From a virus: a stretch of 64,000 nt of DNA. Shown here one piece after another: positions 30,201 through 62,679 of this stretch. Below the pieces are notes generated by a model. It was not told where the DNA came from and did no database searches. It saw only the letters and a list, made by a program, of their open reading frames with translations. Every line of letters starts with the position of its first letter. The stretch's first letter is position 1. Where the stretch lies: IMG/VR virus record IMGVR_UViG_3300025401_000023, positions 1 through 64,000 of that record. One strand, written 5' to 3'. Both the position numbers and the translations under genes were made by a program.

Positions 30201-33200
30201 ACGGAATTGCTGTAATTGTTGTATTATAACTAAATGATGCTGTTGAATTACATGTAACAACGTCACCTATTTTTAATCCATCTGTACTTGCAATAGTAAG
30301 TGTAGTTAATCCTGCGCTATTTACTGTTAAAGAGTGTGTTGCGCTAACTACTGTACGAACAACTGTTACTACTGGTAACTCAGAAAGAACATTATACGCA
30401 TATGATAATTTAACACCGTCAGACACATACGAATCTACATTACTCTGTAGATGGTACACATTTATCTGTGTTCCAGCTGTAGGAGTATATGGTAATGTAA
30501 ATACACGTTGATTGGTTGATGCTGTTACAATATAATCATCAAATAGAGGGTCAACACTATCCCACTTATCTGAATAATAAGGAAGTGCGTCCCATCCTGA
30601 ACTAATGTCAAACCCTAAACCTGTGACAATTACTCCGCCGTAATCAATACCTGTCATTAACTGAGCAAGATCTTTTCCTAAGTTTCCTGAAGAAGTATTA
30701 TAGTAGTATTGAATACGATCTGCTGAAGTTAGCAAGTCCCAATTTTTAATATAGTTAACTATTATTTCTGCACCAACTGGAGGAGGACTAGTGAATGTTA
30801 TAGATCCTGAATAACTAGTATATCCCTTAGCCGTAGATGTTACTGTAGTAAGTTTGTATAATTCACGGAGCACTGGTGTGCCGTTTACAGTTACACTAGA
30901 TTTTCCAATTCGAATATCAGGTGCCCATTGTAGTTTATATTGCACTTTAGAACCCGAACCGGTAAATGTTTCAGTATTTTCTAATTGATTAATATAGTAT
31001 GTTTGTGTCAGTCTATCAAATTTTACTTTAATCAAAGTTGATCTTACTGGGCTATCCCCAATTATAGCAACCGCTACTGCTGGAGTACCAGTGGCAGTAA
31101 TACCACCTTTAATTGTTACTGTAGGTGCTGACAAGTAACCAGAACCAGGAGTTAACAATATAATTCTGTTTACAACACCGTTAGTATACAAGGCAGTAGC
31201 CGTTGCACCAGAACCACTATCGCTTGTTATAACAACTGTAGGCTGAGTCACATATCCACTGCCGCCTGAAACTATTTTTAATTCAGTTACAACATATCCT
31301 GCGTTATCTAACCAGAATTTCCAAGGATATGTTTGAATTGCTGGATCAGACGCTTGTATTGATCCGTTGGCTACATAGGTATTAATTAAGGAAACTTGAC
31401 CATTTTCATATACTGGTTGTAAATCAAAATCAGTAACAGCTAATTGTCCAGTATCTAAATTTTCATAGTTACTGATATATTCTCTAATTTTTGTTCTATA
31501 TGGTTTAACTTCTGCAATATAATCTTCAAAGTTACTTAAATTTTCTGGTATGTATGTTACAGGTTGGCTTAATGCCCCTACATTGTGTTCAGCTCTTACA
31601 AAACTAGTTTTAAAAATCCAATCAATGTAAGATTGTTCACTATGTGCATATCTTACAGCAGTAAAAAATAAATTTAAATATTCTTGTTTTAGTGTGTTAA
31701 TGAAAATATTATTTTTAATAGCATTTAAAATTACACGCAACTCAACTGCCGCTACTGTATCAAAAGATTCACCGTCAAACGTAGAGCCATCATAACCAAT
31801 ACTAGTATCTACAAACTCATATAATGTAGAATTAAATTGTATAGTTCCGTTTTGTATTCCAACAACACTATATGATAAAGTCCAGTCAACTGATGTTGAG
31901 TTAGCATACTTTGTTAGTAATTCCCAACCTCCAGAATTTGTTGTTCGAACTTTAACAACTTCTCCAACTAGAACAGTTATATTGTTTAATTCTGCAAGAG
32001 TTGCAACAGAATGATCTACTGCGGTAAACTGTGTGTATCCAGTTGCAAACCAATCAGCGTAACTCCAAAAATTTCTAACATCATATGCCTGTGTTATGAT
32101 ACGTGACCATACTTGATTAATTCCGTCATATGAATATATACTCCAATTACCAGTTGCTTGACTATCGCTATGTACTAGTGCCGAGTAATCTCTAATTAAA
32201 CAACTTGTAGAATCACTATATCCAGAACCACTATTAATAACAGTTGCTCCAGTTATTTCTCCTAAGGTGTTAATTGTTGCTTTAACTATTGCACCGCTAC
32301 CCGTTCCAACTATTGAAATATAAGGAGCAATTAAATAGCCTTTACCGGGAGTGGTAATTGTCACACCGACAATTTTTCCATCTACAATCACAGGAACAGC
32401 CGATGCTCTTGAATAAGTTACAACATTTGCAAATCTTAATTCAGCATCTGTATCAAATACAACGTCATACAGACCAGTATTAATATTTGGTTCAGGATCA
32501 AATGATTGCAAGCTACTAATATCACAATTGCTAACAATTTGTTGAGCTATCATGATGTTGTTAGCATATTCAATATACTGTTTAAGAGCTTCAAATCGAT
32601 TAACAAACATGCCCTGGCGTGGTCTGTTTTCAATACCATATTTTAATTTAATTGGTAGTGCAGGATCAGGAACTAATCTGCCAGCAGTATCACGCCCGCA
32701 TAGACTGTCAAACAATTTCTTTTCAATAACACTAGGAATATTAACAGCTGGGTCATTGCTAATCATTTTCCATTGATTATGAATGTTTTGATCAATTTTA
32801 TCAACTAGCCAATACTCTACACTTAATACTACGTTGACATCACTAAGATACTGTTTAGCATTAATCAAACTAAAAGAATTTAGTCCCGTTAATGCTAGGA
32901 ATGTGTAACCTTGGCCTCTTGGATTGCCAATTAATGTAGCAACATTTGATGCAGACATGTTTCTGCCTGAAACATTTGGCGTTATTTTTTTGTTCTTTAC
33001 CCAATAGAAATATGTAATTTTAAATTTTTTACTTACATTATCATATACTTGTCTAGTAGAATAAGAATTATCGCCGTACAACGATTTTCCACTAACTCCG
33101 GCAGCTACTCCAGGTCCGGTATCAGCTATTTTATCCCAAGCTGAAGGTAGGAGAGGAGTTTGTACCCACTCATAAATATCAATTGTTGATCCAACTACTA

Positions 33201-36200
33201 AAGAATTCCATGTAGAATTTCTATAAACTACATCATCTGAATAACTGTCAATAAATTTAGCGGTTCTTAAATCCCACCACAACATGCCTACTTGATCTTT
33301 TGACCAAGCTGAGCTTGTGTCTACGTTGACCGTGGCATCGCCGACAGTATACACTGCTGGATCGTAGAATGTTTTAAATTTGATTTCTTCATCAGCAGGC
33401 CCTGGAATTTTTCCTTGGGCTTGATCGACTACATCTAGGTATGTTATCAGCTGATTAGTGCTTCTATTATACAAGAAAGCCTTTTTAACTTTACTAACAT
33501 CAGGTTTTAAAATTTCTTGTTTATAAGTCTGCCAAGAATACTCATTTGGCATTTTACCGTAATAGTACACTCTACCAGAAACATACGATGTTCCTTGATT
33601 ATCATAATCTAATGCATTAGGTGCGCTAACAAATACATGGTTGTCTCCGACTGCAAATCCAGCACCGTATCCATCTAACGCTTGATTCGTTGTAGTTAAA
33701 CTTTCGCTAAACACCCACTTAGTAGAGTAATTATCATAGATATCAATTCTACCACTGTTAATATTTTTAGTTGAAAACGTTGTTGAATTTTTATCAAACG
33801 TAGTAACACCATTTGTATTAAATGTCATAAACGTTTCAGTGTCGCCATACAGACTATAAACTACTATAGTCTTATAATTATTCATAAATGCAACTTTATT
33901 TCCAAATCGACCATTTGTTTCAGGTTGGTGATCTACTAATGTTTGATACGGAGTTGAACCATAATTTGTTCCATTAAATTTATAAATGTAAACGTTACCA
34001 AGTTGTGGAACTAACGGAGCACTAGCACTGTCGTCTGATATAATTAGATAAGTACCATCATCGGACAGATCAACACTTATTCCAAAGTCTACATTAGAAC
34101 CGCTGATTAGTTGCTGTGTGCCAGCTTGTCCGTTAAGAGAATTGAATAGTACTGTTACTGTTCCAGCAACTGTTCCACCTGCGGCAGCTATTACTAATAC
34201 AGCATTATTATCACTAATGGTAATACTACTTCCAAAGTTACTACCGGCAACTGTGCCAGTTATCGGTAGCACCGGCTGATATCGCCAGCCTATCGAAATA
34301 AAGTTCAATGCGCCACTTGGCTCAGAATTAGGACTACCTGTTAAAACTAATGTTGTTGTATTAAGAACTGCTTCAACTTGTTGATTACCTGTGAAGCCAA
34401 TACCTTGTACATACATTCCAGGTCTGATACCAACGGTTGAACTTACAACAATTGTACTGATGCCACTTCCGACTGGATTATATCCAGTTGTAGCTTCTAA
34501 AAATTCTGTATAGACCAAACCATAAACTGCACCAGTATTGTTATTATTTCCAATTGCACCGATGAACAAATTATTAGTTCCAAAGGTAATTGTTGATCCA
34601 AATTGTTCATTTGCTGAAATCTCTGGGCTAATAATTGTGTCAACTAGTGTGTAGATATTATTTGTATCTTTAGAATATAAAGAAACTACTCCGTGCTGTG
34701 CAGGGCCAACTTGAGGGCTAACTGTAGACCATGATGCTGAACCAGATGATGGAGGAGTTGGTGCTACCTGTGTAGCAGTCATTGTACCTGTAGATGTTGT
34801 TAACAACGCAAAATTATTGCCATTGTAAGTATCTGTAATTGTAAATGTGGTGCTGCCAGATATACGCAAGACATAATATGCCTGTGTTGGAATTATTCCG
34901 CCAAATGTTGTGCCGACTGCAAAGGTTAATCGACGTCCAACTTGTAGGTTAGCTGTAGATGTAGTAGTTAATTCTCCAGTCAATCCGTTGATTGCTGTAA
35001 TTGTTATTGTAGTTTGTCCGTAAGTTTGTTGTATTGCTTGATACAACACATCGTTATAGGTAACTAAAGTGTTTAATGGATAAGAGTCGTATTTGCTCCA
35101 ACTACCTGTTTGAGATACTGGAATATAAGGAATTCTTTCCCAATTAACGCTTCCAATAGGATTATCAGATGTTGTAGAAATTGCTTGATAGTATTGTATA
35201 TTTCCGTCGGACAGCGGATCTATAGAAACAATTAAACCAGTACCATATACTGTACCAGTTGCCCATACTCCGACAAAATTGTGAGAAGCATACCCAGCAA
35301 GCGGACTGCCAGTTGCCATGTATGATCCATCAGGTGAGAACGCAATTACTCTAGCAATATTACTAATTAAATTTAAATTGTTATGAGCAATAAACGGAGG
35401 CTGAATTGCTTGTCGTTGTATCCAAGGAGTTGCAACAGACGCCTTATCATACGTAATAACTTCGCCAATTGCTGTTCCAACCGCAGATATATTACCTGCT
35501 TTATTCATAGCAACAGTTAATCCATATTCTAGATTATTTTGAGGATCGTAGTTATTAATAAAAGACTGCGTATATATAGGATTGTATTTCCAGACAGCCC
35601 ACTTATTATCGGCATTTTTATCAGTCCATATTAGCTCATTGTCGTTAATTACTTTAGGTAATATTGAATCTATTGCATCTATTGAACTTGCACGTTGTGA
35701 CACCAATGCATATACTACTAAGTTAGCTGACTGTGTAAACTGGCCAGGAAACCCAGTAATGGTTGCAGATATTGTAAACGAATTCAATGTAACTGATTGT
35801 ATCTGATAAAAACCTTGTAGTAATGCCACTTGTGCTAATCCTACATATGATCCAGCTTGCAAATTAACTAAATTTTGTGTAGTAATTGTTAGAATTTTTG
35901 TAGTAGCATTATAAGAAACTGATTGAACAACCATATTGATATCAGTATATCTATAAACATTCCAATTATTTTTTTCAAATGTAACCCAGACGTATGCACC
36001 GTTATTAAATTTTGTAATGTCTTGAGAAGTAATATCAGACAACGATTTTAAAGTTAAAAATACATCAGCCGTGTCAACATAACCTGCATCTCGCAAATAA
36101 GGATTATATTTAGATAGTACCGGCCAGGGTTGAGAGTTGTATCCTAATGGTTTTAAATATACATCATTAGGTGTTTGTTGATTGATAAAGACATTTAATG

Positions 36201-39200
36201 TCGAGTCGTGTTGAGGTAATAGCAAATATCCTTGAGGATTATTTCTAAATAATTTTTCATCTAGTACAAATTCTATATTTTCAAAAGAATTACTAGCACC
36301 GTATTGCCCAACTCGTAACGCCCACTCTTCATAGAACACTAAACTTTCTTTATTTTTGGAACTTAATACGTCAAATAATTTATTAAGAACATTTTGTGTT
36401 CCTTTTTCACGAATCATACCTTGATAAAATTTATATTCACTAACATCATCTTGAATAATATTATCTAAGTATTGTCTCTTTTGATAGCCGATTAGATGTT
36501 GAGCTACTTTTTGTTGTGAGGTATCAAAATTATCGTCATCTAAACTATAGAAATCAGTAAACTGAGTTGCTATATTTGTCCAGTTAGGTAATAGTCGAGG
36601 AGTTGGTTTTTCAGTAAGTTTTACCCAATCGCCTGCATTAAAAGTTAATGATCCAGCTACAAAAGATAATGCACTGTAATAAAAACTTTGATGGCTAACT
36701 GTGTCACCTAGTGCATAGTCCTTCCATGGCTCCCATTCTTGTATTATTGCCTGGTCATAGATAAATCCAGGAATATCTAAACCGCCATACCAGCCAGAGG
36801 TGATGTATCCAGAAAGTTTAATTCGTTCTTGTCTGTAACCAGTTTCAGGATTATATATTGTATCATTAAAAATAGTAGTATTATTTAGAATAACTAAATG
36901 TTCTATTTGAACTAGATAAAAGCTAGCACAATATATCCCGTCTGTTGTTTTAGTATTGTAACTTACTAAATTGTTTTCTCTATAACTATCTAAAAATATT
37001 GAACTTAACGGAGTCCCGTCTACTTTAAAAATTTCATAGTTATTAAATTGATCATTAATATCTTGAACTACAGTTAACGGTGCATTAAATGTTAATTTAG
37101 ATGCGGCTGGGCTCAAACTAATTACTGAACTGCCAATGTCACTTAGCCCGTCTAATTTGTTATACAATGTAGTATCAAATATCGAAGAAGCAGGAATATT
37201 AACTACTGCACTATAATAATCACCGTTATATCGAACTATATTACCATATGGCACATTAATATTTGGTGTCCAATCTTGCCACTTAGACGTGCTTGCGCTC
37301 CAGTTTTGTGTGGTCCAGAATAAAAATTCTTTTGAACTAGATTCCCAATTGGTAACTGTTCCTAGGTTCTTATTATAATCGTCAAATATGAACCCTTGAT
37401 CTTTTAACCATTCACCGTAACCTAGTAAGAAATCTACAACATCTTGTACAGATAAAAATAGTGTACCATAAGGAACAACTACTGAAGTTGTACGGTCCCA
37501 CTCGCTTCTCAAGGCAGCGTTGGCACCGCCAATGATTGGAATATCTGGTAATACTTGATAATACGATTGAATAAAAGTATCAGTTGCTGTGTGTGTTGTT
37601 TGAACACGATAATAAGCATTATTATATTTTACAACTGACCCAGCACCGTATTGTTGAAAAGGTGTCCAGCTAACATATGTTTCTGATATTCCGCCAACAT
37701 TAATTTTTGCACCAGTTTTTGTATAGTTGTAGTACTTAAAATAAGGTTGAGTAATACTGTAACCCTTCACTTGATACCCGGTGCTTAATTTTGTAATAAT
37801 TACACCACTATATGTAATCTTGCGAACTGTGCTAGAAGTGTTTAAAACAATATTATAATCTTCAGTTGGCACAAATACACTTCCAGCTGACAGCGGAGTT
37901 TTAGAATCTAGTAATAGATTAAATTGATCTTTGTTAGTGAATGATCCTACACGATATGACAATCGCGGAACCATTGTAGTCAATTCAGTTTGATATGTAT
38001 TATACGATTTGATATTATTACTAAAAGTAAAATGTAAAATATAATCAATTATATAATTTATAATTCCAGCAGTCTGTACTCGAGTACTACTAGAATAAAT
38101 GCTCGGTAACACAACATCAGCAGGACGGATTCTTAAACCTGTGTCTGCGTTTATTAATTGTCCAGCTAGGTTACGAACAATACGGGATCTATCTAGTAAC
38201 ACTCCGAATGTTTGAGATGGTGTTAATAGCATTGATGCAACTAATACACTAAATGGATAATAACTACTGCGGCGCCAAGCGGCTTCTACAGGGCTAACAT
38301 CGCCAAATACAAAATTATTGTCAGTTGATACTGTAAAGATTCCCGATGCTAGTCCAGATATTGCAGGACTAACAATATTTCCAGATTCGTCAACTGGGAT
38401 ATGTTGCATTAAAAATGGTTTAGCATACTGCGGTAGATAAACTGGAGGTACTCCTGGTTCTCTAACCATGCCATCATTAATGTCTTGCCACATAGGCAAG
38501 TTGTCGCTAGTATAAGGTGCTAGGCCATACAATGATGTCCACCAAGTTGGCTCAATACTAAAACCTAACATTTCCCAAGGGCACAAATTAGGTCTATCAG
38601 TATCTAACATCCATCTGTAAATGCCTCTCCAATATCCTGGAACATTACTACCATTAGGGGAGCTATGCCCAGTGTAGTTATATGTAAAAGAATTACTTCG
38701 ATCGTAACTTAACGGCTTAGTAAAATCTACTCCTACTAAACCAGTCCATTTATAAAAATTTGGAGCTAATACTTGATTAAATTCGTCAACACTATACGAA
38801 TTAGTTCTATTGTAGCTAGGAATAATTGTAGCTAAATCAAAAATACTAGTATCATAATTGACTTTAATATTATTAAAAATTCTTTTTTCAAATTCTAAAA
38901 GTATACCATCACGGAAATCAGATGTGCTATTAGCACCGTAAGTACCATATGCTAATATTTGACTGCCGTCATGTCCTTGTATCATCCATCGCGGAGTTAC
39001 AAACGAAGTATCTAAGTATAATTTAGGTTCATATTTAGGCCAGAATCCTAACTTAGTAGGAGTTTCGGGAATGAAACACCCATCAGTACTTTCATATTCA
39101 TATGTTGTAATTACATCACCGTTTGCCAATGTTGCAGACACATTTATAAAATTCTGGTCAACAAATGTATAATCACGTCCATGTATTAGTTGTGTACCGT

Positions 39201-41970
39201 TTAAGTAAACGCCTACTGCTTTAGATGATAGCTCAGTTAGATTGAAACTATTTGTTAATGGATATAATTTTATTCTGTAATCTACTACATTTAAATTTGT
39301 AGCTAAACTTGCGCCGTATGGCACCATATCACTAAAGTAATAAGGATGTGTAGTTGGAGTATCTTTATTGATCTGTTGGATTATAAGATTTACTAATGTT
39401 CTTGAATCTGCTTCAACACCAAGAGATTCAGCAACTGCAATTAAATTTCGTTTATAGTTATTATATTCATCTCTTGCAAGTTCTAATGCGTGAACAATAT
39501 TATTCTGTGGCGAAGTAACATGGTACAACGAAAGACTTGCTGGACCGCTATGTTGAACAAACTTAGTGCCAAATGCTGATAAGTTTCCTAAATCTCGTAA
39601 ATTGCTTTCGCCTGGGAATGATCCAACAAATATTGTTCCTAAATTGTCAACAATAGAATTAACATGATCAATTACTTCACCTAAAGTGAATTCAACTATT
39701 TGATTGTTTAATGGATTATTTTGTAAGTTGATCGGAATCTCATAGTATCCATTAGCATTAATAGATTGATTTGCATAGGCTTTGATTGTCAATACATCAG
39801 TCAGCAGAATATCTGTTGTTAGAACAATCTGTTTAAAACTAGGAGTATCAACAATTGACCAATTTGGCCAGTCTAGTCGCTTGCCGTTAACAAACACTCT
39901 TACTACTAGATCATTTAAATTACTAATATCATCAAATATATCTAAATTAAAATTATTTGTTTTATTAGAATTTTTATATATTCTAATAGCGGCTTGCACT
40001 GTATCAACTACAGATTTTTTCCAGCCATTTTCGTATACAACATTACCAGCATAATCTTGTGTAACAAGATACCCAACATTTATACCTTGATCAATAACCG
40101 CAGTAGTTTTTTTATATTGAAAAATATCTGTAGCTAGATTAAAATTAAAAACAATGTCACCAATGTTGCTTACATTTTTGTATGATAATGCAAATCCTAA
40201 ATTAGAGTCGGCAATGCCAGTTCCAATTTTGTATGAAAAAATTTGTGTTCCTATAAATGTTGAACCATTATATACACTGGTATCACCAAAACTAATTTTA
40301 TTAGAATCAACAATATCAAATAATGGCGGCTGATTTACAGTTGTTTTCTTTTGTGCTAACTTCCATGCTGTTCCATTATACCAGTAACTCTGACCTTGGT
40401 TAGATTTGCCTTGTCTTACTAAGACTACATGATTTAATGACGGTGTTTCAATTTCAACTAAATGAATTTGCTTAAGACCATTGATATGTTGTATGTCAAT
40501 AAATTCTACTTGGTAAATTTTATTCTTAACAAGAATATCAGTGTCGGCAGTAAACAGTATCTTATGTCCTGTTTGTAAAGCTACTGAGTCAATATTATAT
40601 CCAAATGAACCTTCAATTGTTGAGAACACATCAGTTGTAAAGTTATCAATCAGGTCAATGTCATCTATAGCTGTTGTACCATAGTTGAATAATTTTAAAT
40701 CAGCATTGAATTCAATAATTGGACGAATTGCTCTGTATTTTTGATCTAAGCTGGCTATTGAATTGTTAAACAATGCGCTGGCATTTATAACATCTTTATG
40801 GAACCAACGATTATATCGACTCCATGGATTGTAATCTCGAGAAGCTCGGCTGATTACAATATAATCTAAGCTATCTGCAAATCCGCTAGCATTGTCAAAT
40901 GGCTCTGTATCAAACGAATCAGAATCAAATAAAATGTCAGTTACAGTAGTATAAGGACTTGTAATTTCTAAGATTGACTCAGGAATTAGTTTAATAGAAA
41001 TTCCAACACCGTCAACATAAAATTGTCCAGATGCATAAGTTGCAGGAGTAACATTACCACCAAAGGCAATTTTCATTCCGTTACTTAACTCTATGCCATT
41101 AGCTAGTTTATACTGTTTTTTTCCAAGGATTTCATTTTCAACATCAATGAATGTGTCTTCAAGGATGTTGTAGATTTCAATTGCTCCGCCAAGATTTAAA
41201 TCACTTTCACTTTGATAGTACAACAAGCTAGGTGCATCTAATGGGATAGTAAAAGTTATTGTTCCGTTTGTAACAGCACTTCCGCTTAGTGTTGCAGTTT
41301 CGTATCTATCTGCAATGCCTAAACTTCTAGCTGTTTTAAAACTAAAAGGATTACCTGGACTAGTAATTTCAAATGTGTATGTCTGTCCTCTAAATAATCT
41401 TAATACAGGGTTTCGAGTAAATCCGTTAGGCGTGAATAGATATTCGTTATTGTTTAATTCCGACTCAAGTGTTACTGTATATGTACTTTCTATAGCAAGT
41501 TGCTGTCCATAAATTTTAATTAACTCTGGACCGTACGGTAACCAATAGTAATTTTGAAAGTTAACAAACTTGTCCCAATCAATATGTGGATCCCAAGAAT
41601 AGAATTCTTGTGCATTTAGTCTTGCATGATTACTAGTATTAGCGCCAAATACATTTAATTGATTAATATAGTCAATATAATCTTTAAAATAAGTTACGTT
41701 ACCAATAGAATCCGTTACTGTTAAAGAAGGCTCTAATTGATAATTTTGTCTTGCGGCGTCAGATGCCTTGACGAATATGTCAGTGCCTGTTGACGATTTA
41801 GCATTTTCTCGACCGATATACCCGTTAACTTTTTTAATTGCACCAGGTTGATATAATTGATCAAGTGTAGCTTGAAGGAATTTTTTATTAGCTTCTGTTC
41901 TATAAAACTGTGGAAGTAAATTTAAACTAAGACCAGAACTATTACCGTTAGGGTTAACACTATCAACCAT
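27241..41970 (-). CDS. Giant virion/baseplate protein, 4909 residues
   Basis: A single open frame of 14.7 kb, directly after gp6 with an 8-base overlap, in the place of T4 genes 7-10. The N-terminus (LNLLPQFYRTEANKKFLQAT, then LDQLYQPG) and YSWDPHIDWDKFVNFQNYYW are features I associate with large structural proteins of T4-like phages of marine bacteria. Along the chain: carbohydrate-binding-like W-x-x-x-Y-x-x-G-x-x-V-x-Y-x-x-x-x-Y modules near residues 1440, 1570, 1750, 2240, 2290 and 4760; FG-GAP/propeller-like repeats at about 2450-2800; G-S-G-Y-x-x-x-P-x-V-x-I repeats near 3210, 3575 and 3615; a Thr/Asp-rich tail. It probably joins baseplate wedge and periphery, perhaps with glycan binding. 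No stop or frameshift is seen. Confidence 0.8.
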   Translation of the reverse strand: MVDSVNPNGNSSGLSLNLLPQFYRTEANKKFLQATLDQLYQPGAIKKVNGYIGRENAKSSTGTDIFVKASDAARQNYQLEPSLTVTDSIGNVTYFKDYIDYINQLNVFGANTSNHARLNAQEFYSWDPHIDWDKFVNFQNYYWLPYGPELIKIYGQQLAIESTYTVTLESELNNNEYLFTPNGFTRNPVLRLFRGQTYTFEITSPGNPFSFKTARSLGIADRYETATLSGSAVTNGTITFTIPLDAPSLLYYQSESDLNLGGAIEIYNILEDTFIDVENEILGKKQYKLANGIELSNGMKIAFGGNVTPATYASGQFYVDGVGISIKLIPESILEITSPYTTVTDILFDSDSFDTEPFDNASGFADSLDYIVISRASRDYNPWSRYNRWFHKDVINASALFNNSIASLDQKYRAIRPIIEFNADLKLFNYGTTAIDDIDLIDNFTTDVFSTIEGSFGYNIDSVALQTGHKILFTADTDILVKNKIYQVEFIDIQHINGLKQIHLVEIETPSLNHVVLVRQGKSNQGQSYWYNGTAWKLAQKKTTVNQPPLFDIVDSNKISFGDTSVYNGSTFIGTQIFSYKIGTGIADSNLGFALSYKNVSNIGDIVFNFNLATDIFQYKKTTAVIDQGINVGYLVTQDYAGNVVYENGWKKSVVDTVQAAIRIYKNSNKTNNFNLDIFDDISNLNDLVVRVFVNGKRLDWPNWSIVDTPSFKQIVLTTDILLTDVLTIKAYANQSINANGYYEIPINLQNNPLNNQIVEFTLGEVIDHVNSIVDNLGTIFVGSFPGESNLRDLGNLSAFGTKFVQHSGPASLSLYHVTSPQNNIVHALELARDEYNNYKRNLIAVAESLGVEADSRTLVNLIIQQINKDTPTTHPYYFSDMVPYGASLATNLNVVDYRIKLYPLTNSFNLTELSSKAVGVYLNGTQLIHGRDYTFVDQNFINVSATLANGDVITTYEYESTDGCFIPETPTKLGFWPKYEPKLYLDTSFVTPRWMIQGHDGSQILAYGTYGANSTSDFRDGILLEFEKRIFNNIKVNYDTSIFDLATIIPSYNRTNSYSVDEFNQVLAPNFYKWTGLVGVDFTKPLSYDRSNSFTYNYTGHSSPNGSNVPGYWRGIYRWMLDTDRPNLCPWEMLGFSIEPTWWTSLYGLAPYTSDNLPMWQDINDGMVREPGVPPVYLPQYAKPFLMQHIPVDESGNIVSPAISGLASGIFTVSTDNNFVFGDVSPVEAAWRRSSYYPFSVLVASMLLTPSQTFGVLLDRSRIVRNLAGQLINADTGLRIRPADVVLPSIYSSSTRVQTAGIINYIIDYILHFTFSNNIKSYNTYQTELTTMVPRLSYRVGSFTNKDQFNLLLDSKTPLSAGSVFVPTEDYNIVLNTSSTVRKITYSGVIITKLSTGYQVKGYSITQPYFKYYNYTKTGAKINVGGISETYVSWTPFQQYGAGSVVKYNNAYYRVQTTHTATDTFIQSYYQVLPDIPIIGGANAALRSEWDRTTSVVVPYGTLFLSVQDVVDFLLGYGEWLKDQGFIFDDYNKNLGTVTNWESSSKEFLFWTTQNWSASTSKWQDWTPNINVPYGNIVRYNGDYYSAVVNIPASSIFDTTLYNKLDGLSDIGSSVISLSPAASKLTFNAPLTVVQDINDQFNNYEIFKVDGTPLSSIFLDSYRENNLVSYNTKTTDGIYCASFYLVQIEHLVILNNTTIFNDTIYNPETGYRQERIKLSGYITSGWYGGLDIPGFIYDQAIIQEWEPWKDYALGDTVSHQSFYYSALSFVAGSLTFNAGDWVKLTEKPTPRLLPNWTNIATQFTDFYSLDDDNFDTSQQKVAQHLIGYQKRQYLDNIIQDDVSEYKFYQGMIREKGTQNVLNKLFDVLSSKNKESLVFYEEWALRVGQYGASNSFENIEFVLDEKLFRNNPQGYLLLPQHDSTLNVFINQQTPNDVYLKPLGYNSQPWPVLSKYNPYLRDAGYVDTADVFLTLKSLSDITSQDITKFNNGAYVWVTFEKNNWNVYRYTDINMVVQSVSYNATTKILTITTQNLVNLQAGSYVGLAQVALLQGFYQIQSVTLNSFTISATITGFPGQFTQSANLVVYALVSQRASSIDAIDSILPKVINDNELIWTDKNADNKWAVWKYNPIYTQSFINNYDPQNNLEYGLTVAMNKAGNISAVGTAIGEVITYDKASVATPWIQRQAIQPPFIAHNNLNLISNIARVIAFSPDGSYMATGSPLAGYASHNFVGVWATGTVYGTGLIVSIDPLSDGNIQYYQAISTTSDNPIGSVNWERIPYIPVSQTGSWSKYDSYPLNTLVTYNDVLYQAIQQTYGQTTITITAINGLTGELTTTSTANLQVGRRLTFAVGTTFGGIIPTQAYYVLRISGSTTFTITDTYNGNNFALLTTSTGTMTATQVAPTPPSSGSASWSTVSPQVGPAQHGVVSLYSKDTNNIYTLVDTIISPEISANEQFGSTITFGTNNLFIGAIGNNNNTGAVYGLVYTEFLEATTGYNPVGSGISTIVVSSTVGIRPGMYVQGIGFTGNQQVEAVLNTTTLVLTGSPNSEPSGALNFISIGWRYQPVLPITGTVAGSNFGSSITISDNNAVLVIAAAGGTVAGTVTVLFNSLNGQAGTQQLISGSNVDFGISVDLSDDGTYLIISDDSASAPLVPQLGNVYIYKFNGTNYGSTPYQTLVDHQPETNGRFGNKVAFMNNYKTIVVYSLYGDTETFMTFNTNGVTTFDKNSTTFSTKNINSGRIDIYDNYSTKWVFSESLTTTNQALDGYGAGFAVGDNHVFVSAPNALDYDNQGTSYVSGRVYYYGKMPNEYSWQTYKQEILKPDVSKVKKAFLYNRSTNQLITYLDVVDQAQGKIPGPADEEIKFKTFYDPAVYTVGDATVNVDTSSAWSKDQVGMLWWDLRTAKFIDSYSDDVVYRNSTWNSLVVGSTIDIYEWVQTPLLPSAWDKIADTGPGVAAGVSGKSLYGDNSYSTRQVYDNVSKKFKITYFYWVKNKKITPNVSGRNMSASNVATLIGNPRGQGYTFLALTGLNSFSLINAKQYLSDVNVVLSVEYWLVDKIDQNIHNQWKMISNDPAVNIPSVIEKKLFDSLCGRDTAGRLVPDPALPIKLKYGIENRPRQGMFVNRFEALKQYIEYANNIMIAQQIVSNCDISSLQSFDPEPNINTGLYDVVFDTDAELRFANVVTYSRASAVPVIVDGKIVGVTITTPGKGYLIAPYISIVGTGSGAIVKATINTLGEITGATVINSGSGYSDSTSCLIRDYSALVHSDSQATGNWSIYSYDGINQVWSRIITQAYDVRNFWSYADWFATGYTQFTAVDHSVATLAELNNITVLVGEVVKVRTTNSGGWELLTKYANSTSVDWTLSYSVVGIQNGTIQFNSTLYEFVDTSIGYDGSTFDGESFDTVAAVELRVILNAIKNNIFINTLKQEYLNLFFTAVRYAHSEQSYIDWIFKTSFVRAEHNVGALSQPVTYIPENLSNFEDYIAEVKPYRTKIREYISNYENLDTGQLAVTDFDLQPVYENGQVSLINTYVANGSIQASDPAIQTYPWKFWLDNAGYVVTELKIVSGGSGYVTQPTVVITSDSGSGATATALYTNGVVNRIILLTPGSGYLSAPTVTIKGGITATGTPAVAVAIIGDSPVRSTLIKVKFDRLTQTYYINQLENTETFTGSGSKVQYKLQWAPDIRIGKSSVTVNGTPVLRELYKLTTVTSTAKGYTSYSGSITFTSPPPVGAEIIVNYIKNWDLLTSADRIQYYYNTSSGNLGKDLAQLMTGIDYGGVIVTGLGFDISSGWDALPYYSDKWDSVDPLFDDYIVTASTNQRVFTLPYTPTAGTQINVYHLQSNVDSYVSDGVKLSYAYNVLSELPVVTVVRTVVSATHSLTVNSAGLTTLTIASTDGLKIGDVVTCNSTASFSYNTTITAIPSSTTVSLSQIIFVDVPTGSSIVFTRTLVPAVDVTINKNGSIILVTAVTAGSVINITGILSPVRIDDPQYGTAQQTNFNAVMYTPIAGSPGQTITPLDGGGATITGSPTVDDAGQASTVYGQSDSTIDGEIINNVITNVVELPPEFVVSSGDRFIFRKSTSDGSVTPQNVDYDTAITGGDLAYSTATGFAADDIIMDGDGLVTPTSSPAPEEVVPGQVVDTLAIKVYDQNSSGSANFKVDRYFSDGITSSYAISQQPNSSQAVIVKLGNVIETQIDNYTIDYRNKLVIFNTVPAAGQEIGIFSIGFNGSNILDIDYFVGDGITQEFITRATWLDSITTLVYVDGVVTNADLFKTDSSYSLVDAVGIRFVKPPVTGALINFVIVSGNQQTFAITKTERITPNGSLTSFVLANPIGTSIPTESNIIVRVGSNILRAPTNSYFTIGNNRLNYTIDPTKFRPYVLAITNIQVIANGVELILGKDYIVDISGITIKLSKPAYKTYTGTQLVVSVNAGADYSYTPSNNTITFNTAPAINSVVEIISSYQHNILDIERTTTTVTSDLSLTPDTLEFYTYNAISNGRIVLDRPVIDENYVWVIQNNTLLIPSFDYKVNDDRNSIQLAHAPAANDNISVMLFSSNVLTASISYMQFKDMLNRVIYKRLSLNKQTILVNDLLWNDTIITVKDASNFDVPNPSQNKPGIIEIRGERIEYFALNGNVLSRLRRGTLGTGTPPLHIAGSIVQDIGGSETIPYTDTTTVEQILSDGTNIVNLQITPMAEVIASGKAYTTTANWNYASGYESSIPAGYLQADDIEVFVGGYDTSLTWTSGVLYPVGVVVNVNTYTYRCITAHTSSDKFSTDSSNWQFFIGNIRLKKSPYKVHNVNVAPYSPEGDVQLDADFAVNGVSSSIRLTNKLAVGTQVTVVKRSGTAWDGALNILDDNNTISRFLKATPGIWYTDYNKYLQQPTAVISTFDSSVGTFDSTTTTFDQGN

Positions 41971-56211: not shown

Positions 56212-57366
56212 ATGAAAATCTATGAAATAATCTCTGAACAACAAACACAAGAAGGTCTAGCCGCTGATATATTAGGTGGTATTGGAAGTCTTGGGTTCAA
56301 AGCCGCTAAGGCATTCCACGGAGATGAACCACTGATTAAAAAAGGTGCCCAAGAGCTAGCAGACTTTGCTAAAACTCGAAATACTACAGTTGCCGCTGCC
56401 GCTAAAGATCTAGCTAAAAAAGATGCCGCTGAAATTGCGCATTATGCTGAGAAATATAAAGTTAGTCCCGAAGAAGCTGCCAAGGCTTTAAACAAACGTC
56501 CAGACCTTGCTGACAAAGTACTTGCTCAAGCTAAAACAGACAGTGGACTTAGAACCGTTGGACTAGGTAAACTAGTTGGCATGGGCAAATTGGAAATGAT
56601 CAAAGAAGGTGGTAAGAAGTTAGCCAGCCTTGGATTTGATGCAGCCTATCTTTATGAATTATGGTCTCCAGCACTTGAGTATTATAATCATATGAAAGAT
56701 GCTGAAGAATGGGTCAAAGCAGGAAAAATTCCTCCTGGATATGAACAGTTTAAAGATGTTACTGAATGGTACAATGCTTACCGTCAGCGTGAAATGCAAA
56801 TCCTAATTGGTCGTGAAATATCAAACTTTGCAGTGGCTAAGATTGCTAAAATACCAGGAAATATTCTTGGTGGATTCTTTACTAAGATGGGTGCTGAAAA
56901 ATTAGGAAAAGCAGTTTCAGGCCTAGGAAATCAACTAGTTGGTACAGTTGCATTAAGTATGTTTAACAATAGTGATGTAGCCAAAGGTATTGCAGAAGGT
57001 ATGGCCGGATCGTTCTTTGGTATACAAGATTTTGTTGGTGCAAAAGGTGTACAAGTATTAGATGCATTAACACCTGAGTTTATGAAGAGTGTTAAACAAG
57101 GTCCTGTTACTACACCTGCAACAACTCCAGATAGTACACCTGCCGCAAGCGGAACTACACCTACACCTACTAACGGAACTCCTGCAACAACTCCAGCCGC
57201 TGGACAGGGAGCTACACCTACTGCCGCAGGAGGGCAACCAGAATTACTAAGCGGGTTTAAATTAGCACCAAATGCTAGTCCAATAGCGCAGTGGAAAGAT
57301 ATTGGTACTGGATGGATGCAAGATCCTAAAACTGGACAACGTGCATTGAAAGCACAATTAAATTAA
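56212..57366 (+). CDS. Probable internal or structural virion protein
   Basis: 384 residues. The start MKIYEIISEQQ resembles the N-termini of several structural proteins in T4-like aquatic phages. Residues 10-135 are Ala/Lys/Glu-rich helices (AAAAKDLAKKDAAEIAHYAE, SPEEAAKALNKRPDLADKVL), followed by a Gly-rich membrane-active-looking helix region (about 200-290) and a Pro/Thr/Ala linker (TTPATTPDSTPAASG...) before a small C-terminal domain (SPIAQWKDIGTGWMQDP). It may be packaged in the head or tail. Its stop overlaps the stop of the convergent frameshift frame. Confidence 0.6.
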   Translation: MKIYEIISEQQTQEGLAADILGGIGSLGFKAAKAFHGDEPLIKKGAQELADFAKTRNTTVAAAAKDLAKKDAAEIAHYAEKYKVSPEEAAKALNKRPDLADKVLAQAKTDSGLRTVGLGKLVGMGKLEMIKEGGKKLASLGFDAAYLYELWSPALEYYNHMKDAEEWVKAGKIPPGYEQFKDVTEWYNAYRQREMQILIGREISNFAVAKIAKIPGNILGGFFTKMGAEKLGKAVSGLGNQLVGTVALSMFNNSDVAKGIAEGMAGSFFGIQDFVGAKGVQVLDALTPEFMKSVKQGPVTTPATTPDSTPAASGTTPTPTNGTPATTPAAGQGATPTAAGGQPELLSGFKLAPNASPIAQWKDIGTGWMQDPKTGQRALKAQLN

Positions 57367-57599
57367 AGAAGTGGTAGACCAGTATCTTCAACTGATTTAA
57401 TATTTTCTTTAATTATTTCATAAGCGGCTCGGCGATCGTCGTAGCTGTAGGTGTACATTAAATCATTTACTGTAACACCACCCCGCATGTACCAGCTAAT
57501 TCTAAATAATTCTTCTTTGAATTGTTTTATTTCTGTATCAAGCCTAACTAGACGTTCTTCAATCTCAAAGGGTGTGAGACCAATTAGGCTTATGCGAAA
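57363..57599 (-). CDS. -1 frameshift extension of the gp26-like tail gene (T part)
   Basis: A 78-codon frame on the minus strand entered from the gp26-like gene by a -1 shift; it has no ATG, GTG or TTG start. Its product, after the slip, runs FRISLIGLTPFEIEERLVRL, then helix, then LFRISWYMRGGVTVNDLMYT and YDDRRAAYEIIKENIKSVED, ending TGLPLL. The WYMRGG...ENI...TG-P pattern is known to me from a small protein beside gp26-type genes in T4-like cyanophages. The fused product would be about 349 residues. It is probably the T half of a tail-assembly chaperone that contacts the tape measure, whose gene is adjacent. Confidence 0.75.
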   Translation of the reverse strand, partial: FRISLIGLTPFEIEERLVRLDTEIKQFKEELFRISWYMRGGVTVNDLMYTYSYDDRRAAYEIIKENIKSVEDTGLPLL

Positions 57600-57605
57600 A
57601 AATTT
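57540..57605 (-). promoter_or_regulatory. Programmed -1 ribosomal frameshift signal
   Basis: In the gp26-like frame the codons read TCA AAT TTT TTC GCA TAA. This gives two overlapping slippery heptamers, A AAT TTT and T TTT TTC (57605-57596). Seven bases after the first, AAGCCTAATTGG (57591-57580) can pair with CTAGTTAGGCTT (57551-57540): 12 pairs with two wobbles. The 28-base loop holds a further TCTCA/TGAGA hairpin. Slip site, spacing and stem fit known -1 signals. Confidence 0.75.
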
Positions 57606-58411
57606 GAATTATCTAGCTCAATGCTAACTTCGTTATCACGGTCGCAACTTTTGCATTTAACTTTATAGTTAGGCAACAACCAAGTTTTTTGATTTTCTTC
57701 AATTTGTTTTTTAATTGCATCAAAAACAGTCTTGTCGCAATTTTCTAACCATTCTTTAATATGTCCGCGTTCAGTTACATTAGTAGTTTCGACTTCAACA
57801 CTTTCTACACAATCGGTAATCATGTCGTTTTGTATAATCCCAATAGCAGTAAACAGCTCGTTAACTTTTTTCTGCTGTTCAGTTGCGTCAGTGATAGCTT
57901 CAACTTGACTTAATTGTTGTTGCAATTGGAAATTTTTAATGTTAACATCTGTACTTTGCTTGTAGTTCAATGGTCTAATCTTAATCACTAGATTGTTGAT
58001 AACAACACGATTATCAAATTTACAGTTTGAATAGTGTTCAATAGCTTTACCTAGATCTAAATCATAATCATTTTCAGCACCGCACCCTGGGCAATTATGT
58101 GTAACAGCCATCATGTTACCATAGGTGGCAATTCTAATAGCAGTGAACAACAAGTTAGTGTCAAGCGTACTAACATCCCATCCATTTTTAATACTAGGAC
58201 AGCAACTTTCTAGTACCTTTACTGTGCTTTCTCCACTTAGCAACGCATCAGGAGTGCGTATAATAATTTCGTCCATACCTGTCATACCAAATACAGGCAT
58301 ACTTTCAGTATTACCGGTTAAAGATCCAGATTCGTTGTAAATGCCTTTACTGGCTAGACTAATAAAGATCTTAGGTTGTCTAAAGTATTGTTGCAGAGGA
58401 TTATTGGCCAT
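57590..58411 (-). CDS. gp26/gp51-like baseplate-hub or tail-assembly protein
   Basis: 273 residues, started by AGGAG and ATG 58411. IIIRTPDALLSGESTVKVLE, then CCPSIKNGWDVSTLDTNLLF and TAIRIATYGNMM are typical of the T4 gp26/gp51-type family. Two C-x-x-C pairs, NCPGCGAE and KCKSCDRD, suggest a zinc-ribbon part. In T4 these proteins assist hub assembly. The frameshift into 57363-57599 and the adjacent tape-measure gene suggest that here it works as the G part of a tail-assembly chaperone. That function is inference. Confidence 0.75.
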   Translation of the reverse strand: MANNPLQQYFRQPKIFISLASKGIYNESGSLTGNTESMPVFGMTGMDEIIIRTPDALLSGESTVKVLESCCPSIKNGWDVSTLDTNLLFTAIRIATYGNMMAVTHNCPGCGAENDYDLDLGKAIEHYSNCKFDNRVVINNLVIKIRPLNYKQSTDVNIKNFQLQQQLSQVEAITDATEQQKKVNELFTAIGIIQNDMITDCVESVEVETTNVTERGHIKEWLENCDKTVFDAIKKQIEENQKTWLLPNYKVKCKSCDRDNEVSIELDNSNFFA

Positions 58412-58473: not shown

Positions 58474-60921
58474 ATGGCAGATGTCGATCTCAGTCAAGGT
58501 AGTCTACAGCAACTAGCTACACTAATACGTGGGGGTAATTCTGGCGGTGCAGGTGCCGGCGGCGCAAGCGGTGCAGGAGGTGGCGCTGGATTAGGTGATA
58601 TTATTAAATCATCGGTGGGTGTAGTTGGCGCATTTACTAGTATTACTAATAACGGTAATCATGCGGCAACTGCATTAAGTCGAATGGCTAGTGTTGTTCC
58701 AGGTCTAGGCGGAGCCGCTAGTAAAGCTATCGGTGAGCTAGACGGATTAAGAACAGGCACACTAGTTAATGCACAGCATGGTGTGTCTATGAGTTTCTTA
58801 GACATGCAGAATAAGGCTAACCAAGCCGGTCTAAGTCAAGAACAATATTTGCAGGCTGTACAAAATTCTGGAATTGCACTAGATGCAGTAAGTGGAAACG
58901 CAACTGGTTCAGCTGAAAAATTATTGAAGCTTGGAAATAGTCTACAAGAAGGTGACTTAGGTAAAAATCTTAAAGAAAAAACTAACATGGCGGCAGCTGA
59001 GTTAGGTAACTTAGCAATTGTTAGTCAGTATGGTGCAAAAGCTAACCTTGATAATCCTAAAGCTATGGAAAGGGCTAGTCAATTTGCAGGTGAACTAGCA
59101 ACTAATTTACATCGTACTTCGCAAATTACTGGACAAACTCACGAAGCATTAACTGCGGCTCTTGAAGCAAGATTAAAAGAACCAGGTGTTGTTAAGATGA
59201 TGCTTAGTATGACTGAGCAACAACGCGAAGCATATGTAACAGCTCAAGCAAAATTATTAGGAATGGGACAGAGTGTAGGAGACTTAACTGATACTATTGC
59301 TAAAGGTGGTCGATATAGTAAAGAGAATGTAACAACTTTAATGTCCATGGGCCCGGCCGCTGGAGAATTTCAACGTGCAACCTATGCGTTAACACATGCT
59401 AAAACAGCTGAACAAAAAGCCGCTGCCGAACAAGCATTAGAAAAAGCCAAGTCGCACGTTAATGAATTTCAATCTAGTCAACGTTTTCAAAACATGATTA
59501 ATCGTTCTACGCCTGAAATGGCTGCAGGACTATCAAAGATTGCTGAAGAAAATAGATTGGCAGGACGACAAGTAGGTGGAAAAGCAGAAACCGGACTAAC
59601 TGGGGTAAAGGCAGATCAAGCAACTAGGGATAAAGTTGATCTGCAAGGTCAGGGTTTAGTAAAAGATGCTACAGGTAAAGTGACTCAAGATTCTAGCCGT
59701 GCTTTTGACCAAGCATTGTCAAGAACGGAAGAAAAAGGAAGAGTCGCAAGTACAGCTGGAACACAAGCACTAGCAGATACTTCAGCAAAAATTGGAGCAG
59801 ATACTGCTTCGATTAAAAAGTTTGACGGAGCAATGTCGACGGTATTTGGTGCAGGCGGAACTACTGAAGCAGCCGCAAAGAAACTACAAGCTGACTTTAA
59901 ATTACTAGGCGATGTAACTGGCATAAGCAAGCCTGGTGCCGCATCAGCCGCGCCAGCAACACCTGGTGCATCGGCAGTAGGCAATCGTGAAATAGGTAAA
60001 CCACCAGGAAGAAAAGGTGGATCTAAAGATGCTACCGGTGACTGGTTTGAAAATTTTGGTGCTGAAACTACAGTTAATTTGCACGGTGATGAAGCAGTTG
60101 TTCCTAAAGCTCAAGTTAAAACGTTTATGCAAGATATGCAAGAACGTGCTTCGAAACAAATGGCTAAACCAGCTGTAGATAATAGTAAAAATATGTTATC
60201 TGACATGTTGCCCAAGGGCGGTCTTAAACTTCCTGAAGTTAAACCACCAGAGTTACCTAAGTTAAGTGAAGAACAATTAAAAACTCTTTCAGAAGGTCCC
60301 GGCGAACGTAACCAAGGAAAAGGTAGTCCCTTTTATCAAGAAGCATTAAAACTACAAGAAGATATTAAAGCAAGAGCTACTGCTCCTAAAGTTGAAACAC
60401 CTAAAGCAGAAGTCCCTAAGCTAGACATACCTAAAGTTGAACCAAAAGCAGAAGTCCCTAAGCTAGACATACCTAAAGTTGAACCAAAAGCAGAAGTCCC
60501 TAAGCTAGACATACCTAAAGTTGAACCAAAAGCAGAACCTAGTATATTTGATCGTATAAAAACTCAAATATCAAGTATCGTATCTAAAACTACTGCTCCG
60601 ACAGCTCCTTCTATACCAAAATTAGATAGTATTAGTGCTGACATTGCTAAACCAGTAACTCAAACACCGTTGCCAAAACCAGTTCCTAAAATAGAAACAG
60701 CAGAAAAGCCAGTTGAACAACCGAAAGCGCAAACAGCTACAGCGGCTCAACCAGCGGCAACTGGCACTAGTGCTATATCATTAAAAGATCTCAATGACCA
60801 GCTAACGATGTTAAATAAACAAATGGGACAAATGATAAGTCATGCGGCCACCACCGCCGAAGCTAGCCAGAAGACAGCAAAGTCTACTTCTAGACCAGCA
60901 GGTAGCAGAGCATTAGCCTAA
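58474..60921 (+). CDS. Tape-measure-like tail protein
   Basis: 815 residues, Ala/Gly/Lys-rich and mostly helical, longer than T4 gp29 (590). At about 527-545 it has WFENFGAETTVNLHGDEAVV, the G-x-x-T-x-V-x-L-H-G-x-E-A-V-V element common near the end of tape-measure proteins. The C-terminal third has Pro/Lys/Glu repeats, three perfect copies of a 14-residue unit (AEVPKLDIPKVEPK) at about 645-686. Position next to the tail-chaperone gene supports a tail-length ruler. Confidence 0.75.
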   Translation: MADVDLSQGSLQQLATLIRGGNSGGAGAGGASGAGGGAGLGDIIKSSVGVVGAFTSITNNGNHAATALSRMASVVPGLGGAASKAIGELDGLRTGTLVNAQHGVSMSFLDMQNKANQAGLSQEQYLQAVQNSGIALDAVSGNATGSAEKLLKLGNSLQEGDLGKNLKEKTNMAAAELGNLAIVSQYGAKANLDNPKAMERASQFAGELATNLHRTSQITGQTHEALTAALEARLKEPGVVKMMLSMTEQQREAYVTAQAKLLGMGQSVGDLTDTIAKGGRYSKENVTTLMSMGPAAGEFQRATYALTHAKTAEQKAAAEQALEKAKSHVNEFQSSQRFQNMINRSTPEMAAGLSKIAEENRLAGRQVGGKAETGLTGVKADQATRDKVDLQGQGLVKDATGKVTQDSSRAFDQALSRTEEKGRVASTAGTQALADTSAKIGADTASIKKFDGAMSTVFGAGGTTEAAAKKLQADFKLLGDVTGISKPGAASAAPATPGASAVGNREIGKPPGRKGGSKDATGDWFENFGAETTVNLHGDEAVVPKAQVKTFMQDMQERASKQMAKPAVDNSKNMLSDMLPKGGLKLPEVKPPELPKLSEEQLKTLSEGPGERNQGKGSPFYQEALKLQEDIKARATAPKVETPKAEVPKLDIPKVEPKAEVPKLDIPKVEPKAEVPKLDIPKVEPKAEPSIFDRIKTQISSIVSKTTAPTAPSIPKLDSISADIAKPVTQTPLPKPVPKIETAEKPVEQPKAQTATAAQPAATGTSAISLKDLNDQLTMLNKQMGQMISHAATTAEASQKTAKSTSRPAGSRALA
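60406..60531 (+). repeat. Three identical 42-bp tandem repeats in the tape-measure gene
   Basis: Units at 60406-60447, 60448-60489 and 60490-60531 are identical base for base and in frame (14 codons each). A related partial unit precedes and another follows. Perfect identity suggests recent expansion. Confidence 0.95.
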
Positions 60922-60930
60922 GGATAACAG

Positions 60931-62679
60931 ATGAGTTGGAAAAAATATTTCACACCAGTACCAGTTAATGGCCAGCTATTAGGTCCAATCTCTGGTGCAA
61001 ATAGTAGCGGATCTAGACCTGGCCCTGCACAAACAAACTATTCAAGCTATCTACCTGATATCTATACAGGCAGTCCTAACCGTGTTGAGCGTTATAGTCA
61101 GTATGAAGTTATGGATAGTGATCCAGAAGTTAATGCCGCACTAGATATTCTTGCAGAATTTTGTACACAAAAAGTAAAAGATAGTAAAAGTCCATTCTCA
61201 GTCAAGTGGCGCCACAAGGCTACTAATAGTGAAATTAAGATTTTAGGTGAATACCTACAACAATGGAACAAACTACAACAGTTTGACACACGTATTTTCC
61301 GTATTGTTCGTAACGTTTTCAAATACGGTGATACATTCTTTATTCGAGATCCTGAAAATCAAAAATGGAGTTACGTAGATCCTGCTAACATTGTTAAAGT
61401 TATTGTAAATGAAAGCGAAGGAAAGAAACCTGAACAGTATGTTGTTAAAGATCTTGCTCCTAACTTTGAAAATTTAATCGCTACGATGATTACACCTACG
61501 GTAAGTCCACGTGCTGGCGCTGGTGGAACACAAGGTGCAAGCGGTAACTTAGGACAAGGTAGTTCAGGTAAAGGTAGTTCAGGACCTTATTCTACAAGCA
61601 GTGCTGGCGGACGCTTTGGATTAAACCAAAAAGAAAATGCAGTTGATGCTAAACATGTTATACATCTAAGTTTGTCAGAAGGATTAGATCAAAATTTTCC
61701 GTTTGGTAACAGTTTATTAGAGAATATCTTCAAAGTTTACAAACAAAAAGAACTATTAGAAGATGCTATCCTTATCTATCGTATACAACGTGCTCCAGAA
61801 CGCAGAGTATTTCACATTGACGTAGGTAATATGCCAAGCCATTTAGCTATGGCATTCGTTGAACGTGTTAAGAATGAGATCCATCAACGTAGAATTCCTA
61901 GTCAGTCAGGTGGCGGACAAAACGTTATCGACTCTGCTTATAATCCTTTAAGCATTAACGAAGATTATTTCTTCCCAACAACAGCAGAAGGACGTGGATC
62001 TAAAGTAGAAACATTGCCCGGCGGTACTAACTTAGGTGAAATTGATGACTTAAAGTACTTTACTAACAAGTTATTCCGTGGTTTACGTATTCCAAGTAGC
62101 TATTTGCCTACTGGTGCAGACGATAGTCAAGCAAGTTTTAACGATGGACGAGTGGGAACAGCATACATTCAAGAACTACGCTTTAACAAATACTGTGAAA
62201 GACTACAAAGTCTTATTACAGCAGTGTTTGATACTGAATTTAAGATGTACATGGAGAGTAAAGGACTTAATTTAGATGCTAATCTATTTGAGTTACAGTT
62301 TAATCCTCCAATGAACTTTGCAAGTTCACGTCAAGCGGCTATGGATACTGAACGTATTAACACATTTAATACAGTTCAAGCAGTACCTTATATGTCAAAA
62401 CGTTTTGCATTGAAGCGTTTCTTAGGTTTAACTGACGAAGAAGTTGCAGAAAATGAACGTATGTGGGCTGAAGAAGCTGGTAAAGGTCAACCAAATCACA
62501 CAGATGCCGCAGGTGAATTGCGCAGTGCAGGTTTATCTGCCGCAGGTATTGAAGGAGACTTAGGTGCCGCAGGCGATATGGATGCTCCAGAAGATATGCA
62601 AGATGCAAATGCAAGCGATGCTAGCGCAGTAGGTGGTGCTCCGGCTGCTCCAGGTGCTCCTCCTCCACCGGCTGCATAA
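60931..62679 (+). CDS. 20: Portal vertex protein gp20
   Basis: 582 residues, T4 gp20 being 524. Family features: RVERYSQYEVMDSDPEVNAA, LDILAEFCTQKVKDSKSPFS, IVRNVFKYGDTFFIRDPENQ, then HQRRIPSQSGG, DYFFPTTAEGRGSKVETLPG and LFRGLRIPSSYLPTGADDSQ. It forms the dodecameric portal for DNA entry and head-tail joining. A Gly/Ser-rich loop (about 190-230) and an Ala/Pro-rich C-terminus are additions. Preceded by AAGGA. Confidence 0.95.
   Translation: MSWKKYFTPVPVNGQLLGPISGANSSGSRPGPAQTNYSSYLPDIYTGSPNRVERYSQYEVMDSDPEVNAALDILAEFCTQKVKDSKSPFSVKWRHKATNSEIKILGEYLQQWNKLQQFDTRIFRIVRNVFKYGDTFFIRDPENQKWSYVDPANIVKVIVNESEGKKPEQYVVKDLAPNFENLIATMITPTVSPRAGAGGTQGASGNLGQGSSGKGSSGPYSTSSAGGRFGLNQKENAVDAKHVIHLSLSEGLDQNFPFGNSLLENIFKVYKQKELLEDAILIYRIQRAPERRVFHIDVGNMPSHLAMAFVERVKNEIHQRRIPSQSGGGQNVIDSAYNPLSINEDYFFPTTAEGRGSKVETLPGGTNLGEIDDLKYFTNKLFRGLRIPSSYLPTGADDSQASFNDGRVGTAYIQELRFNKYCERLQSLITAVFDTEFKMYMESKGLNLDANLFELQFNPPMNFASSRQAAMDTERINTFNTVQAVPYMSKRFALKRFLGLTDEEVAENERMWAEEAGKGQPNHTDAAGELRSAGLSAAGIEGDLGAAGDMDAPEDMQDANASDASAVGGAPAAPGAPPPPAA

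Follow-up and report, generated by a model that had tools for sequence, protein, structure and literature searches.

A −1 programmed ribosomal frameshift at the end of a T4 gp26-family gene very probably yields both a short and a long tail-assembly chaperone in the virus studied here, in the manner of G and GT of phage lambda. The DNA analysed (hereafter the window) is a 64,000-nucleotide stretch that forms part of a 79-kb virus record (IMGVR_UViG_3300025401_000023), the relatives of which are the jumbo phages RaK2, 121Q, PA5oct, Atu_ph07, and Phosso. Frameshifting at this locus is strongly supported by comparison, its actual occurrence and rate being what we infer, and a chaperone role would follow from the T4 proteins gp26 and gp51, from gene order, and from the analogy to lambda. 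Specifically, the majority of ribosomes would read to a TAA codon and produce a 273-aa short protein, and a minority would slip back by one base on the heptamer T TTT TTC, aided by a hairpin 5–6 nt downstream. Slipped ribosomes would read 77 more codons, resulting in a 349-aa long protein that carries an extra C-terminal domain. If lambda is a guide, the short form would wrap around the tape measure protein, to which the long form would recruit tail tube subunits through its extra domain, and both forms would leave before the virion is complete. The initial annotation of this locus had proposed a frameshifted chaperone of the G/GT type, and this proposal draws comparative support from a slip site found in all relatives, a covarying stem in the window's clade, selection on the −1 frame, the single-copy state of the gene in the named jumbo genomes, T4 gp51, and the gene order of KVP40 and P-SSM2.

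The candidate short (G-like, TAC-N) chaperone is encoded on the minus strand at 57590–58411. Its 273-aa product matches the Pfam family T4_baseplate (PF12322) with an E-value of 8.2e-17 and a score of 62.1 bits, which passes the curated cut-off of 24.5, and PHROG 150 (baseplate hub) with an E-value of 2.2e-18. A search of 25 records, either named phages or contigs, exceeded the PF12322 cut-off in every case, and the two CxxC pairs of the protein are invariant in 23 relatives. Beyond PF12322 and PHROG 150, searches of Pfam, PHROG, and NCBIfam with the gene and the −1 domain returned nothing further. Whole-record searches of 10 named jumbo phages found a single PF12322 gene in each, so that no second gene of this family is available to supply the long form.

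With respect to the slip site, the gene ends on the minus strand with GAT AAT TCA AAT TTT TTC GCA TAA, in which the heptamer T TTT TTC (57602–57596, 0-frame AAT TTT TTC) lies just ahead of the stop codon. To place this heptamer in a comparative setting, 42 viral contigs that span the whole end of the gene, retrieved with the gp26-like protein using search patterns that exclude the slip, were combined with 10 named jumbo phages and the window and reduced to 33 non-redundant loci of <90% identity. All 33 carry xxT TTT TTY at the gene end, as T TTT TTC in 32 and as T TTT TTT in one, and conservation of the heptamer extends down to about 22% protein identity. It sits 3–33 nt ahead of the 0-frame stop and is accompanied by a −1 extension in every locus, with RaK2, PBECO4, PA5oct, and Atu_ph07 among the relatives that retain both. 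The second Phe codon of the slip is TTC in 32 of the 33 loci, and elsewhere in the same genes TTC accounts for 75 of 320 Phe codons. Among the other codon triples of these genes, xxT TTT TTY was found only twice in 8,505, and the copy at the gene end is the sole in-frame T TTT TTC within the window's open reading frames of at least 100 aa (23,566 codons). In three loci, the −1 frame has a stop codon directly adjoining the heptamer, which leaves no other place for the shift. The initial annotation had described two overlapping slippery heptamers. One of these is T TTT TTC; the other, A AAT TTT, was rejected as a slip site since it is unconserved, being present in 11 of the 33 loci and missing from each of the 10 named phages.

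Downstream of the heptamer, the window contains a putative stimulatory stem whose 5′ arm (57580–57590, minus strand) begins 5–6 nt past the slip and pairs over 11 bp with a 3′ arm at 57541–57551. An inner hairpin is present within the loop of this stem. The initial annotation had correctly anticipated a stem at this location, but its dimensions (a 12-bp stem after a 7-base spacer) require revision. Among the 22 loci of the window's own clade, 95% of stem cells are paired and 10 cells are altered on both sides. The covariation score was reached by none of 500 shuffles, and slid registers pair at 13–55%. A common stem was not found in the distant jumbo phages, a few of which have no stem at all. 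Thus, when the locus is aligned across relatives, as the initial annotation had suggested, the slip site is kept throughout and the stem is kept within the window's clade. Hairpins of unrelated sequence occupy the same position in the cyanophages P-SSM2 and S-PM2. A stimulatory structure of this sort is frequent at G/GT-type shift sites, though not an absolute requirement.

The −1 frame itself has the features of a coding sequence. In the window it is free of stops from 57608 to 57366 (minus strand) and terminates at 57365–57363, and the portion that begins at the slip (TTT TTT CGC ATA ...; 57363–57602, minus strand) comprises 79 codons and a stop. Its first ATG, GTG, or TTG appears only at codon 38. 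Fusion of the 0-frame residues to this domain gives the predicted 349-aa long form (GT-like, TAC-NC). The frame is open in all relatives, and past the 0-frame stop it has a median dN/dS of 0.22 (183 pairs) and codon-position entropies of 0.83/0.48/1.21. These values indicate purifying selection on the −1 frame. The gene end and the lack of an early start codon are as originally described, and the impression that the −1 frame resembles a real protein has held up.

A different source for the downstream domain would be reinitiation, in which stop–start coupling turns the −1 frame into a separate small gene and releases a free C-terminal protein. This arrangement is implied for KVP40 and P-SSM2 by public annotation, and it draws on TAATG or TGATG overlaps in KVP40, Cr30, and phiM12, on an ATG that coincides with the stop or lies close to it in Atu_ph07, Phosso, PBECO4, and XbC2, and on phage PAU, where a separate ATG is accompanied by a good ribosome site. 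We nonetheless regard it as very unlikely for the locus described here, as 28 of the 33 jumbo-clade loci, among them every member of the window's clade, lack ATG, GTG, and TTG over the 15 codons that open the −1 frame, yet the heptamer is kept in all, and T4 gp51 carries the domain fused in frame.

The slip sequence could also act at the level of the message or of the codons alone. Runs of poly-T or poly-A can cause polymerase slippage, and the run of six T present here might permit transcription of a fused message. Six-base runs are short for such an event, however, and the run is followed nearly always by C and lies in a fixed codon phase. Together with an RNA stem conserved at ribosomal spacing in the window's clade, these features render transcriptional slippage extremely unlikely. 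Alternatively, T TTT TTC might merely reflect conserved Phe-Phe and Arg codons in two overlapping frames, with a long product that has no role. Phe-Phe is indeed encoded in both frames, and the final C is, in the −1 frame, the first base of an Arg codon that is common there. Yet the residue preceding the slip varies among N, S, H, D, R, and Y across the 33 loci and its codon ends in T without exception, the stem covaries, the −1 frame beyond the stop is under purifying selection, and T4 retains a dedicated long gene. We attach almost no credence to codon constraint as the full explanation. Programmed −1 frameshifting remains the reading that we favor.

In terms of structure, an AlphaFold2 model of the 273-aa protein (pLDDT 86) found matches among viral proteins in predicted baseplate hub assembly proteins of the T4-like type, with E-values down to 4.9e-22. 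An AlphaFold2 model of a gp51 homologue (pLDDT 85) displays a helical C-terminal extension. Fold searches of the PDB with both models returned no solved tail chaperone, such as HK97 gp13, and no match at E ≤ 0.001, and a sequence-profile search of the PDB gave no convincing chaperone match. Tail chaperones of the G/GT type are highly diverged. With regard to virions, the proteomics of phAPEC6, a 121Q-like phage, list the portal gp230c and its neighbor gp231c, and gp232–gp237 are absent from that list. From the gene order of 121Q, we infer that gp232 is the gp26 homologue; if so, this absence fits a helper that is not part of the virion. The two T4 proteins gp26 and gp51 are classed as chaperones of hub assembly, and virions contain no gp51 (PMC3004832).

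The gene neighborhood in the window provides additional context. Divergent from the gp26-family gene is an 815-aa gene (58474–60921, plus strand) of a length suitable for a tape measure protein, whose product bears VPKLDIPKVEPKAE repeats and the GDEAVVP motif. The latter occurs as LHGDEAVVP, a motif that we take to be linked to tape measure proteins. A match to a PHROG tape measure family (1.6e-6) was not accepted as proof of identity, as it falls solely on a repetitive, proline-rich stretch. The initial annotation was correct that the neighbor is divergent, and its tape measure identity is probable but weakly indicated by sequence. The corresponding neighbors in RaK2, PBECO4, Munch, XbC2, and XaC1 are homologous to one another, and the BLAST matches listed contain no link between them and the 815-aa protein of the window. 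In most of the jumbo clade, the large neighboring gene is divergent, in contrast to the directly downstream position seen in lambda. It is followed in the window by a T4-like portal gene (gp20; 60931–62679, plus strand; Pfam Portal_T4, 6.2e-109). Elsewhere in the window, amid genes of tail or structural appearance, we observed an open reading frame of 4909 aa (27241–41970, minus strand) that is unusually long for a phage.

The same design extends to other T4-like phages. The gene ends in T TTT TTC followed by a −1 domain in P-SSM2, S-PM2, and KVP40, and in T TTT TTT followed by a −1 domain in HTVC008M, Cr30, and phiM12. It was also observed in all 80 P-SSM2-like (cyanophage-like) viral contigs, two of which end inside the −1 frame. 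T4 contains two PF12322 genes, the short gp26 (208 aa) and the long gp51 (249 aa), and profile comparison relates the T4-like −1 domain to the C-terminal part of gp51 with a probability of 96.7% and an E-value of 3.5e-10. In T4, the long form is present as gp51, encoded in a single frame. The annotators of KVP40 had likened its small open reading frame to the gp51 C-terminus. The jumbo −1 domain gave a weak profile match to the T4-like −1 domain (probability 24%, E-value 8e-4), and direct profile comparison with gp51 revealed no significant match. In KVP40 and P-SSM2, a tail tube gene lies immediately upstream (PHROG 45, 1e-38 and 1e-40), which places the tail tube gene first, then the short gene, the −1 domain, and a large open reading frame, an order like that of lambda.

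Several phages depart from this arrangement. Campylobacter phage CPt10, like T4, pairs a short PF12322 gene with a paralogue to which the C-terminal domain is fused, and this pair is possibly an independent duplication. In Rhodothermus phage RM378, the extension of the PF12322 gene lies in the +1 frame and overlaps a seven-T run (TCC TTT TTT TGG), which suggests that the shift there is +1 or −2 and not −1. In Sphingomonas phage PAU, the domain downstream of the PF12322 gene begins with its own ATG just past the stop, preceded by AAGGAG, and may be made as a separate protein. The −1 extension of Salmonella phage Vi01 resembles the T4-like domain, and the gene end there reads GAA ATT TTC ATT TAA, which lacks a canonical slip heptamer.

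In terms of precedent, Vladimirov, Gautam and Davidson (Virology 566:9-15, 2022) identified the tail chaperone genes of T4-like phages, as described in two papers that cite the work (PMC10885494, PMC12846349). The first of these, on PRFect, cites it for a two-gene solution, short plus fused, in some T4-like phages (PMC10885494), and the second, on phage Adele, for the poly-T signals at which TAC-N genes of T4-like phages slip into the −1 frame (PMC12846349). Based on these accounts, the idea that gp26-family proteins are chaperones, which the initial annotation had not seen stated, was already published in the 2022 study. What is new may be confined to the jumbo clade of RaK2, PA5oct, and Atu_ph07 and the covarying stem found there, a lineage for which no description of a frameshift was found in the literature searched. 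Frameshift annotation is also absent from all database records inspected for this clade. Public records split the locus into a "baseplate hub" and either a short hypothetical protein or nothing, an annotation that the frameshift reading corrects. Evidence at the level of nucleotides thereby carries the known chaperone frameshift into a large set of giant phages. Whether T4-related phages ancestrally made their two tail chaperones by the T TTT TTC −1 frameshift, the jumbo lineage among them, in which it is unreported and misannotated in every record inspected, with gene duplication having replaced it in T4-type and Campylobacter phages, is a proposal that we consider evenly balanced.

Taken together, the locus can be placed among known chaperone systems. 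The chaperone locus of the Vandenendeviridae/Andersonviridae (phage Adele), which was identified by like comparative logic, shares a conserved poly-T motif (GTTTTT) at the short gene end and an uninterrupted −1 frame, and differs in belonging to other phage families (PMC12846349). T4-like TAC-N genes share poly-T slip sites, as reported by the papers citing the 2022 study. T4 itself shares PF12322 and the pairing of a short form (gp26, TAC-N) with a long form that carries an extra C-terminal domain (gp51, TAC-NC), but employs two paralogous genes in place of a frameshift. The RaK2/PA5oct/Atu_ph07 clade further differs from T4 in its very divergent −1 domain and in the divergent transcription of the adjoining probable tape measure gene. 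A 2016 review named T4 as an exception to G/GT frameshifting (PMC5009743), and our comparison is consistent with T4 simply having a different way of encoding both forms. With respect to lambda G/GT, the shared features are a −1 shift, predicted here, close to where the short gene ends, a long form with an extra domain, and, in KVP40 and P-SSM2, the order of tail tube, chaperone, and large open reading frame. The window's locus is distinguished from lambda by its lack of detectable similarity to solved chaperones and by a slip at T TTT TTC that is followed by a stem.
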